Below, piece after piece: positions 15,785 to 39,669 of a stretch of DNA of 64,000 bases. The number at the start of each line of letters is the position of its first letter. The stretch's first letter is position 1. The stretch covers positions 24,055,300 through 24,119,299 of the forward strand of contig NC_086254.1 of the NCBI RefSeq assembly GCF_021018805.1, read 5' to 3'. A program made the position numbers and the translations under genes. The notes under the pieces were generated by a model, which made no database searches, was not told where the DNA came from, and worked only from the letters and a program-made list of their open reading frames with translations. Origin of the DNA: Prinia subflava. Taxonomy: Eukaryota; Chordata; Aves; Passeriformes; Cisticolidae.

Positions 15785-16437
15785 GCATCCCTGAGCACAG
15801 CGCATCCCTGAGCATTCCTGCGCACCCCTGAGCACCCCTGAGCATCCCTGAGCGCCCCTGAGCATCCCTGAGCACCCCTGAGCATCCCTGAGCACCACTC
15901 ATCCCTGCTCATCCCTGAGCCCAGCTCCTCCCTGAGCATCCTTGAGCACCCCTGAACACCCCTGAGCACCCCTGAGCACCCCTGAGCATCCCTGAGCATC
16001 TCTGAGCATCCCTGCTCATCCCTGAGCACCCCTGAGCATCCCTGAACACCCCTGAGCATCCCTGAGCATCCCTGAGCACCCCTGAGCACCCCTGAGCACC
16101 CCTGAGCATCCCTGCACATCCCTGAGCATCCCTGAACATCCCTGAACATCCCTGAGCACCCCTGAGCACCCCTGAGCATCCCTGCACATCCCTGAGCATC
16201 CCTGAACATCCCTGAACATCCCTGAGCATCCCTGAGCATCCTTGAGCATCCCTGAGCCCCCCTGAGCACCCCTGAGCACCCTTGAGCATCCCTGAGCCCC
16301 CCTGAGCCCCCCTGAGCACCCCTGAGCATCCCTGAGTATCCCTGAGCACCCCTGAGCATCCTGAGTATCCCTGAGCACCCCTGAGCATCCCTGCACATCC
16401 CTGAACACCCCTGAGCATCCCTGAGCATCCCTCATCC
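15785..16437. repeat. Minisatellite, 10-bp unit CCTGAGCAYC
   Basis: About 65 copies of CCTGAGCATC/CCTGAGCACC with variants such as CCTGAACATC and CCTGCACATC. Because 10 is not a multiple of 3, all minus-strand frames repeat GCSGMLRDAQ and stay open, giving spurious ORFs of 137-308 codons. The array begins about 70 nt past the donor of BCAS1 coding exon 9. Confidence 0.95.
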
Positions 16438-33381: not shown

Positions 33382-33510
33382 CGGTGCCACACTGATTCAT
33401 TCCCACCCCCACGCGGAGCTAGGGGATGGAACTTGGATGAATCTCGCCAACATTCCCAAGAGTCTCCATTAGCAGAAATGAATTAATGGATATTTGATGG
33501 CAGCACTTGC

Positions 33511-34040
33511 CTTGCCCAGCGGGACCCCAGCGTTGGGTGCGCCGGCCGCGATGCCCCCGTTGGGAACGTCCAGCTCCTGCCTGCCCTCCTGAGGGTCCCC
33601 TCGTGTCCTTCCCTTGTGCTTCTCCAGCCTGAAGATCCTGTCCAAGAGCGTCACTTGTTTGGCCTTTGGGGCGGCCACATCCTGTCCCTCAGGTGTCTCC
33701 TCGAGCTCCACGTCCTGCAGCGGGGCCTGGCCCGGGTTTTTCTGGCTCTCCTGCCGGTCCGCAGCCGTCCCGGGCCGGTCTGTGCCCTCCCTCGGGGCTG
33801 TGTTCAGCCCGGTGGCATCGGCAGCGGGCTCTGCGGGGGCCGGAGGCTCCGCGGAACGCCCTGGCACAGCCCAGGGGAAGGCGAGCGCGGCGCGGGGCCT
33901 GGCAGCCGGCACAGCCCCGCTGGCAGCTGGCACAGCCCCGCTGGCAGCGCTCCCACCGGCCTGCCCACCTGCCCGGGCACCGCGCAGCTCCGCTGGAGGG
34001 ACGGCAGCGGCATCCCGGCCAGGAGCTGCCCTGGCATCCC
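33511..34040 (-). CDS. BCAS1: BCAS1 coding exon 3, the largest (residues 51-227)
   Basis: 530 nt, entering in phase 1 and leaving in phase 0. The first part is Ala/Gly/Pro/Arg-rich and contains an in-frame 21-nt duplication giving SGAVPAA twice (residues 84-97). A VPGR segment (about residue 108) matches PVPGR in human. The second half carries VTLLDRIFRLEKHKG (about residues 180-194), equivalent to human FFDKFFKLDKG, and it ends GVPLGK like human DVPAGK. The acceptor is CTCTGTTGCAG at 34041-34043, and it is the last copy of a 9-copy repeat of acceptor-like units. The donor is GGCAAG then GCAAGT, a GC-type donor in its usual strong context; a GT donor in frame is not available nearby. High GC and alanine content suggest rapid divergence. 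Confidence 0.9.
33901..33942 (-). repeat. In-frame 21-nt duplication inside BCAS1 coding exon 3
   Basis: Two adjacent 21-nt units differing at one base encode SGAVPAA twice (residues 84-97). Confidence 0.9.
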
Positions 34041-34700
34041 CTGCAACAGAGGGAGAAAGGAATTATCTCTCAGTGATGGGATTATCCTGGCCAGGATCCA
34101 CCCTGGAATGCCCTGGAATAGAGGGAGAAAGGAATTATCCCTCAGTGATGGGGTTATCCTGGCCAGGATCCACCCTGGAATCCCCTGGAATAGAGGGAGA
34201 AAGGAATTATCCCTCAGTGACAGGGCAGTGTTATCCCAGCCAGAAGCCGCCCTGGCATCCCCTGGAACACAGGGAGAAAGGAATTATCCCTCAGTGATGG
34301 AATTATCCTGGCCAGGATCCACCCTGGCATCCCCTGGAACACAGGGAGAAAGGAATTATCCCCAATTATCCCTCAGTGACAGGGCACCGTTATCCCAGCC
34401 AGGAGCCGCCCTGGCATCCCCTGTAACAGAAGGAGAAAGGGAATTATCCCTCAGTGACAGGACAGCGTTATCCTGGCCAGCAGCTGCTCTGGCATCCCCT
34501 GGAACACAGGGAGAAAGGAATTATCCCTCAGTGATGGGGCAGCGTTATCCTGGCAGCAGCAGTCTTGGCATCCCCTGGAACAGAGGGAGAAAGGAATTAT
34601 CCCCAATTATCCCTCAGTGATGGGGCAGCGTTATCCTGGCCAGCAGCTGCTTTGGTATCCGCTGGAACAGAGGGAGAAAGGGAATTATCCCCAATTATCC
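34041..34700 (-). repeat. Minisatellite of 3' splice sites, 72-87-bp unit, 9 copies
   Basis: On the transcript strand each copy reads GGATAATTCCTTTCTCCC, then a variant of CTGTTCCAG, then GGGATGCCAGGG. The plus-strand marker GGGAGAAAGG (one copy has an A as its first base) recurs at 34051, 34123, 34195, 34272, 34344, 34431, 34509, 34585 and 34672. The copy at 34041-34060 supplies the acceptor of BCAS1 coding exon 3, and about the first 30 nt of that exon also match the unit. Confidence 0.92.
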
Positions 34701-36167
34701 CTCAGCAGCGCAGCTCCCTCAGGGGGCTCAGCCTGTGCTGAGCTGCTTCGGACAGGTGGAGCACTCGGGAGCCCTGGGGCTGCTGCTCATCCCCCCGAGA
34801 TGATTTTGGCTCCCCTGCCACCCCTACACCCTGAAAACTGTGCAAATTTTACTCCCTGCACACTCCCTGACCCCTCACACTGTCAAAGGCAGCTGCCAGC
34901 CCCGTTTGGCACTACTCAGCCCAGTGGACAGCGAATTAAAATAGTGATATGGAAAATAAAACCACCCCAGTAAAACCGAGAGTGTTGTATATCAATATAT
35001 CACCCTCTCCTCTGTCAAAGCTAAAGAAACACAAGGAATGGAAAGCACCAGGACTGATCCCATTTCCTGGCTCCTACCTGCACTTCTCCTTTGCCTGCGG
35101 GTTATTTTAAGCCTGATTTGAATAGTGATAAATCACACCCGAGCCAGGTTTCTTACCCTTACATTTCTCTTTATGTTTTACATTTCTCCTCTTTACCCAC
35201 AAACCGTGGCTCAGAATCACATTTCCTCCCCCAAAATTCACACAAACCATTCCACATGTACACACGTGGCCATCAACCCCTTTTGATTTAAAAGTGTATT
35301 TTATGATTTTATAAAACACGGTTGAGGGGAAAACCCCTGGTATGGGATTCACAGAGGGGAAAAGGCAGCTCCTGCTTTACACAAAACAAAAGAAATAAGA
35401 GCTGTAAGAAAATGAATCTTGCTTGGATCTGTTTTGTGGCTGGGAGGCAGAACCACAGATGATGTGGTGTGAAACCCCAACTAAAAGGGGTCTTGTCAAG
35501 AAGTAAATCTTACAGCTCCCCCCAAGCCTCAGCTGCTCTTCCCTCCTTGGACTGGAATATGGATCTGATTTCCCTGTCAGTCATCACCACATTTCAGGGA
35601 TGAATTTAGATCTGTTTAATTATAACTGTGGAAAACTGACAGGCTCACACCGACTCGCTGAATTAGAACGGGAAAATTGTCAGTTTCAATGCAAAATTGA
35701 AATTGTTTCAAATTATAATTGTAATAGTCTAGTCAATATTATGCCTTTCACATTTTCCTTTAAGAGAAAGAAAACCCCAGATACCAAAAAAAAACTTGAC
35801 TGAAACACATCTTCCACACAGCACAGACCTTCACTTTGAAATTATTTGAGATAAGGAAAAGAGAAGAATTTTAGATCCCAGCTTTCCCTTGGATTTTCAC
35901 AGCAAAATTCCCCCAGCTCCCCAGGGATTCTGGATAATCCCACAAAGCATCAGCAGCTCCTGGGCTGATGTGTCTGTGTCCAGCAGGTTCTGTCCTCCCG
36001 TGGCAGCACCCAGGGGTGCTGGGCACACCCCTGGGAACACCCAGAGCAGAGCAGAGCCAGGGCCACGAGATTCCTTTTTCCACAGCCTCAATTCCGTGGC
36101 TGAGTGTCCCCACTGGACCCAGGCTGGTCCTGAGGAGCTGGAAGTGGGATTTTCCATAAAGCCCAGG

Positions 36168-38982: not shown

Positions 38983-39039
38983 GTGCCTTCAGTCCGTACC
39001 TCCCCGGGGCACTCCCAAACCCAAATTTCCAGTCCGTAC

Positions 39040-39121
39040 CTTCACCGTTCCCTGCCGGGGGAGGGTTCTGAGCAAACACCACAGATCCGTTCTGAACACC
39101 GTCGGGAGAGTCGGAGAGGGG
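39040..39121 (-). CDS. BCAS1: BCAS1 coding exon 2 (residues 24-50)
   Basis: 82 nt encoding PLSDSPDGVQNGSVVFAQN followed by PPPAGNGE, plus one base of the next codon. It aligns with the human segment around ALNGVPVVVSTHTVQ by position and by the pattern NG-x-V-V-V/F. The acceptor is GTTATTCCAG at 39122-39123 and the donor is GAAG then GTACGG at 39039; entry phase is 0 and exit phase 1. The acceptor is the last unit of a 14-copy tandem repeat (39120-39540), every copy of which has the same TTATTCCAG, so the true start could differ by one or more repeat units. Coding content after the acceptor differs from the repeat, which favours this boundary. Confidence 0.85.
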
Positions 39122-39540
39122 CTGGAATAACAAAAAACAGGGGTTTTAGGGCTGGAATAACAAAAAGCAGGGGTTTTTAGGGCTGGAATGACAAAGAGCA
39201 GGGGTTTTAGGGCTGGAATAACAAAGAGCAGCGGTTTTAGGGCTGGAATAACAAAAAGCAGGAGTTTTTAGGGCTGGAATAACAAAAAGCAGGGTTTTAG
39301 GGCTGGAATAACAAAGAGCAGGGGTTTTAGGGCTGGAATAACAAAAAACAGGGGGTTTTAGGGCTGGAATAACAAAGAGCAGGGGTTTTAGGGCTGGAAT
39401 AACAAAGAGCAGGGGTTTTAGGGCTGGAATAACAAAGAGCAGGGTTTTAGGGCTGGAATAACAAAGAGCAGGGGTTTTAGGGCTGGAATAACAAAGAGCA
39501 GGGGGTTTAGGGCTGGAATGACAAAGAGCAGGGGTTTAGG
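39118..39540 (-). repeat. Minisatellite of 3' splice sites, 30/31-bp unit, 14 copies
   Basis: Transcript-strand unit CCCTGCTCTTTGTTATTCCAG then CCCTAAAAC. The plus-strand marker GGCTGGAAT recurs at 39120, 39150, 39181, 39211, 39241, 39272, 39301, 39331, 39362, 39392, 39422, 39451, 39481 and 39511. It fills nearly all of the 479-nt intron 2, and its terminal copy is the acceptor of BCAS1 coding exon 2. Confidence 0.93.
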
Positions 39541-39600: not shown

Positions 39601-39669
39601 CTGGTAACTCTTCACCGTGCAGGTGCCACCATCCTCAGCCTCCTCTGGCACACCCGGGGTGTTCCCCAT
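39601..39669 (-). CDS. BCAS1: BCAS1 coding exon 1 (start codon, residues 1-23)
   Basis: Encodes the N-terminus, beginning MGNTPGVPEEAEDGG and ending VKSYQ; human BCAS1 begins MGN and has ETYQ at the same boundary. The ATG is at 39669-39667 in the context GAGCTATGG, with purine at -3 and G at +4. The MGN start with small residues following resembles an N-myristoylation signal, so the protein may be membrane-anchored (inference). The exon begins five bases upstream, after a CTCCCAG acceptor at 39675-39676, so an upstream non-coding exon must exist. The donor is CAG then GTGAGC at 39600, phase 0. Intron 2, which follows, is only 479 nt and nearly all minisatellite. Confidence 0.9.

Follow-up and report, generated by a model that had tools for sequence, protein, structure and literature searches.

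A probable mirage-type minisatellite across the boundary of intron 2 and coding exon 3 of BCAS1 in Prinia subflava

The tandem array that abuts coding exon 3 of BCAS1 in Prinia subflava is, very probably, a mirage-type minisatellite, that is, an intron 2/exon 3 boundary that was duplicated in tandem and expanded, with copies that serve as decoys while splicing goes to the last of them. The window (the whole stretch of DNA analysed here, 64,000 nucleotides, positions 24,055,300 to 24,119,299 of contig NC_086254.1) carries BCAS1, presumably a myelin-associated gene, with the minus strand as its coding strand, and the exons were mapped by tblastn with avian BCAS1 proteins. The features needed to follow the argument are listed here.

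39601..39669, minus strand: BCAS1 coding exon 1 (MGNTPGVPEEAEDGGTCTVKSYQ), from tblastn and the Prinia proteins.
39119..39537, minus strand: first array, with fourteen acceptors (the last authentic) in 30-bp units, from Tandem Repeats Finder.
39040..39121, minus strand: BCAS1 coding exon 2, with the donor GT beginning at 39039, from tblastn and the reading frame.
34005..34705, minus strand: minisatellite of eight tandem copies of acceptor plus exon start, ending at the authentic boundary, from Tandem Repeats Finder, unit parsing, and alignment.
34575..34661, minus strand: outermost unit (unit 1), 87 bp, with an exon-like part that reads ADTKAAAGQDNAAPS, from alignment and peptide comparison.
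34113..34662, minus strand: eight upstream acceptors, most likely decoys, with scores near the authentic one and no open in-frame extension (0/8).
34041..34073, minus strand: authentic 3' splice site of BCAS1 intron 2 (CTGA branch-like site, pyrimidine tract, CAG), where exon 3 of P0008–P0010 starts.
33994..34040, minus strand: exon-3 start, the segment whose apparent older form is seen in the units (inner limit approximate), from unit/exon alignments and passerine peptide matches.
33511..34040, minus strand: BCAS1 coding exon 3 (530 nt), with a GC donor (GCAAGT) after it, from tblastn with avian BCAS1, the frame and donor context, and GVPLGKEIDEC in P0008.

A preliminary description, made from the letters of the DNA, had named the gene as BCAS1, and both the tblastn matches and the Prinia subflava proteins bear this out. 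Proteins P0008–P0010 (isoforms X5, X4, and X2; the X2 entry is a cluster of three sequences, of which one was compared) are identical, letter for letter, to exons 1–3. At the exon 2/3 junction they read NGE followed by GDARAAPGRDAAAV, exactly as the DNA does at 34041, which confirms that the unit at this position is the true acceptor plus the exon start.

Tandem Repeats Finder returns the array before exon 3 as four overlapping rows (34005–34691, 34012–34603 at two periods, and 34282–34705; scores 426–718) that jointly cover 34005–34705, and a 149-bp period also fits. Unit parsing agrees with the nine acceptor-carrying units originally described: nine near-identical 3' splice sites have their last G at 34662, 34575, 34499, 34421, 34334, 34262, 34185, 34113, and 34041, with spacings of 87, 76, 78, 87, 72, 77, 72, and 72 bp. 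The exact sequence TTTCTCCCT is present in eight of the nine acceptor copies, the copy at 34421 having TTTCTCCTT in its place, and CAG is found in all nine, each time with GGGATGCC-like sequence after it (units 1, 7, and 8 depart from it by one or two changes). Units 1–8 have pairwise identities of 0.83–0.96 and fall by alignment into two types, one of which (units 5, 7, and 8) possesses a 5-bp deletion and GGTGGATCC.

Each unit joins the end of an intron (a CTGA branch-like site, a pyrimidine tract, and AG) to approximately 40–46 nt that resemble the start of exon 3; in alignments of units with the exon, the likeness is limited to the first 40–46 of its 530 nt. The CTGA lies 29–40 nt before the last G in all nine acceptors, and at the authentic site its A is 29 nt ahead of that G.

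The array shows three features of a mirage repeat, namely a tandem, minisatellite-like structure, a unit that spans an intron–exon boundary, and a position abutting the authentic boundary in the same gene. In amphioxus, mirage minisatellites of Adh3 and the globin genes BflGb6 and BflGb9 are tandem repeats across an intron–exon boundary, with units of 10–160 bp, many of which keep splice signals, and regular splicing is reported to be undisturbed (PMC3087553, PMC3902484). The BflGb6 unit consists of an intron 3' end and an exon 5' part, its copies being 81–100% alike (PMC3087553, PMC3902484), and TnC and PGBD5 are given as further mirage genes of amphioxus (PMC3902484). The Prinia unit is built in the same way as that of BflGb6; the differences are that the host is a bird and not a lancelet, that nine acceptors precede exon 3, and that the neighbouring intron contains a separate acceptor array. 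By this analogy, the amphioxus mirage minisatellite is the closest known kind. A search of titles and the beginnings of abstracts in the open-licence literature found no boundary-spanning array in a bird among the papers listed, and no open-licence paper was found that treats BCAS1 together with a minisatellite.

A second comparison is with human genes in segmental duplications, where internal tandem repeats at exon–intron boundaries are reported to be able to alter splicing (PMC2812944). Minisatellite expansion at an exon–intron boundary is common to both; however, the human cases include repeats retained in the transcript or new introns, whereas the Prinia frames exclude in-frame coding use.

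The proposed course of events is as follows. A segment made up of roughly the last 30 nt of intron 2 and the first 46 or so nt of exon 3 would have been duplicated in tandem, and the duplicated boundary would then have expanded and been partly homogenised by ordinary minisatellite turnover. Splicing would go to the last acceptor, beside the real exon, as expected if the exon body and its downstream donor define the exon (exon definition). Transcripts that used an earlier acceptor would meet a premature stop and become candidates for nonsense-mediated decay. The duplicated exon starts would be free from coding constraint, and the outermost would keep an older version of the exon.

The stops themselves were observed. 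Exon 2 ends in phase 1, and reading on from acceptors 1, 2, 3, 4, 5, 7, and 8 leads to a stop after 21, 15, 47, 21, 16, 16, and 16 codons, respectively; use of acceptor 6 would lengthen the message by 221 nt and change the frame, with a stop inside exon 3 after 152 codons. The preliminary description had proposed that upstream acceptors might add repeat-encoded residues in frame, because it saw spacings that are multiples of three. Six of the eight spacings are indeed divisible by three, but its list left out 76 and 77, and because of these two values units 3 to 6 do not share the frame of exon 3. When the units are translated in the BCAS1 frame, as it had recommended, seven of the eight have terminated by codon 48, the remaining one terminates later and out of frame, and none provides an open in-frame extension. 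The repeat peptides LRDN and SLRDN are absent from all 127 BCAS1-like proteins fetched (120 among 986 matches plus seven from another search), and when a 54-residue reading frame from the repeat was searched against proteins, none of the 13 candidates had an E value of 1 or better. In-frame coding use of the alternative acceptors is ruled out for the present haplotype by the stop after every one of them, and as a general explanation of the array it is extremely improbable. The peptide LSPC occurs once among the 127 proteins, in Erythrocercus P0079, a model that begins inside the acceptor region.

Because the upstream acceptors are unable to add protein in frame, they are most likely silent decoys, a reading that also draws on the gene models: all three annotated Prinia models compared (P0008–P0010) join exon 2 to 34041. 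The locus is a ready-made setting for studying how a 3' splice site is chosen, with nine near-identical acceptors that each have a branch-like site and some exon-like sequence of their own and three models that use the last. Among the open-licence papers listed, nothing directly useful was found on how duplicated 3' splice sites compete. One candidate for what distinguishes the last site was RNA structure that hides the decoys. The predicted fold of the array region is more stable than those of 20 shuffled versions (z -4.82); however, the predicted unpaired probability at the authentic AG (0.14–0.24) is within the range of the decoys (0.07–0.61), and this candidate was rejected.

Models from other birds also vary at the same junction. 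Haemorhous, Poecile, and Ammospiza have paired models in which a single residue, located exactly at the exon 2/3 junction, makes the difference (e.g., NGEAGARAA and NGEGARAA in Haemorhous), which suggests a choice between acceptors 3 nt apart there. In NAGNAG sites, two acceptors 3 nt apart have one branch site and one pyrimidine tract in common. Such pairs, recognised at the protein level, resemble the Prinia array in that acceptors compete at one boundary and differ from it in that 3-nt spacing and single branch site and tract. Longer extra residues, not of repeat origin, precede the usual exon-3 start in models of Daphoenositta (P0089), Catharus (P0065), and Sylvia (P0036); these could reflect use of an upstream acceptor there, or annotation errors.

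Intron 1 (39600–39122, 479 nt) is filled to about 87% by the array at 39119–39537. Its unit reads CCAG followed by CCCTAAAACCCC..., and the exon reads CCAG followed by CCCCTCTCC, so the shared exon part is at most about 4 nt. Its units are essentially without exon sequence and lack the exon component of a mirage repeat, and we therefore regard it as an acceptor array and not as a boundary-spanning one. All 13 of its upstream acceptors read Pro-stop, with the stop at the second codon (open in-frame extensions, 0/13), and since the same TAA is found in every upstream unit, this is probably one inherited stop.

The uniform presence of stops raises another reading, in which upstream acceptors are used in a controlled manner, part of the BCAS1 transcript is thereby lost to nonsense-mediated decay, and the level of BCAS1 protein is adjusted through the length of the array. 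It can point to premature stops behind all eight upstream acceptors before exon 3 and all 13 in intron 1. It can also point to splice-site scores of 12.2–14.4 for the decoys against 13.65 for the authentic site, with four of the eight decoys above it, although the scoring matrix is approximate and valid only for ranking the sites against one another. A third point is the variability of the units, in which the mean pairwise difference is 0.055 in the acceptor (intron-derived) part versus 0.197 in the exon-derived part (permutation P 0.0017). Selection on the decoys could produce this contrast as well, but the units have a common ancestry and form two types, so the difference is no proof of selection. 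Against such control, stops are the default expectation in intron sequence and those of intron 1 probably trace to a single one, the Prinia models compared use only the last acceptor, and the authentic site is not distinguished by its predicted RNA accessibility. We consider this reading unlikely.

A broader form of the idea takes both introns together: as each of the 21 upstream acceptors in the two adjacent introns has a predicted strength near that of the authentic site and leads to a stop, array length may set how much BCAS1 transcript survives. This is quite unlikely, though if true, passerines would have a fast-mutating, length-based dial on the survival of BCAS1 transcripts.

We return to the mirage-type duplication and to the likeness between units and exon starts, which speaks for it. 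Four of the eight units (1, 3, 4, and 6) were translated in the exon frame and compared with 84 BCAS1 proteins, namely those among the 127 that begin with MG and so have complete N-termini; several isoforms per species are included, and entries are therefore not independent. The best ungapped match falls at the exon-3 start in 69, 67, 74, and 75 of the 84 proteins, respectively. Median best scores for the units are 32–39, and shuffled unit peptides (200 shuffles per unit, each against one random protein) have medians of 17–23, with single shuffles reaching 30–42. The proposal that the array amplified across an intron–exon boundary holds, given this agreement of the translated units with the start of exon 3 in passerines. 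The residues DN are encoded by seven of the eight units (all except unit 2) and stand at the exon start in 55 of the 84 proteins, where Prinia has DA. Protein P0002 also matches the outermost region directly (tblastn, 34674–34537, E 8.9e-6).

Exon sequence seems to have gone into the array, and its outermost copy seems to be a fossil of an older exon start, though the support from peptide comparison is mixed. Among the nine proteins compared, the unit 1 peptide agrees best with the corvoids, at 11 of 15 residues with Corvus and Oriolus against 7 of 15 with Prinia's own exon; yet it agrees with two suboscine exons at the same 7 of 15, and unit 3 is equally close (9 of 15) to Prinia and to the corvoids. 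The array may be older than the A-to-G change at the first exon residue, a history that one back-mutation could mimic. If copies of this kind do persist, boundary arrays may, as the comparison suggests, store older versions of coding exons outside selection and could help to date the expansion.

The reverse order, in which an intronic minisatellite came first and gave rise to the exon start, would account for the likeness and adjacency of exon and units and would suit a region dense in minisatellites. It is very unlikely, as the exon start is already present in the proteins of suboscines (VDAKASVARDNVAVSS) and corvoids (ADAKAGAGRDNAAVSS), and as the units have only that first stretch of 40–46 nt in common with the exon. 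Judged by the same proteins, the version seen in Prinia seems to be younger than the exon start itself. Small duplications within the exon occur at this point in Dicaeum (AAGRDTVAAGRDTVA; P0059) and Leptocoma (AAGREDAAAGREDAA; P0083), and they suggest a propensity for tandem duplication in this part of the exon.

One might also suppose that a dispersed repeat, either a transposon or a satellite, was inserted at the boundary by chance, since other acceptor-like minisatellites with no identified exon lie nearby, such as one located roughly 66 kb left of the window, with units of 50 bp. Yet the units match BCAS1's own exon, and in the 1.12-Gb genome the acceptor pattern has five exact matches, all inside the exon-3 array, with the pattern so strict that it catches five of the nine sites there and diverged copies elsewhere would escape it. 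Insertion of a dispersed repeat is thus highly improbable.

The preliminary description had found it striking that two adjacent introns of one gene amplified their acceptors. Both arrays do exist, but they differ in kind, and the coincidence is weakened because large tandem arrays are dense in the region. Arrays of at least 100 bp cover approximately 12.6% of the window, and the figures for the two 100-kb flanks are 6.8% and 10.1%; over the 264 kb that include the window, there are 70 of them, covering 9.5%. The BCAS1 span has nine such arrays (14.6% of its length), and two of its 11 acceptors lie within one. Circular-shift tests, for which arrays were merged by hand from Tandem Repeats Finder rows, give a probability of about 0.52 that at least two of 11 acceptors fall inside a large array. 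The stricter question, whether the sense 3' end of an array is near an acceptor, gives one match within 5 bp (P 0.033), two within 40 bp (P 0.021), and two within 60 bp (P 0.052), with distance tolerances picked after viewing the data. Arrays in two adjacent introns are, therefore, only mildly unusual.

In five arrays of the 264 kb, at least three acceptor-like sites share a strand, and the two BCAS1 arrays are the richest (nine and 14). Another acceptor-like minisatellite lies approximately 66.4–66.7 kb left of the window (L019:3322-3599; 50-bp, TCCCTGCAGGGATGCCACC-like units, 5.6 copies, six sites), and as it has no identified exon, acceptor-like minisatellites may lie away from exon borders too.

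The locus gives one reason to treat automatic gene models near avian minisatellites with care. A 10-bp intronic minisatellite after BCAS1 exon 9 (15802–16432) translates to RDAQGCSGMLRDAQG-like repeats, and the Copsychus BCAS1 protein P0006 has RDAQGCSGMLRDAQG-like residues, probably as an annotation artefact.

Two further observations concern exon 3. Intron 3 has an apparent GC donor at 33505–33510 (AAG/GCAAGT), in support of which the Prinia protein joins GVPLGK to EIDEC. Within the exon, an in-frame 21-bp duplication (33899–33948) encodes ASGAVPA twice. None of the four aligned relatives covering the stretch (P0001–P0004) has this duplication, and Anthoscopus P0072 seemingly has further copies of this repeat.
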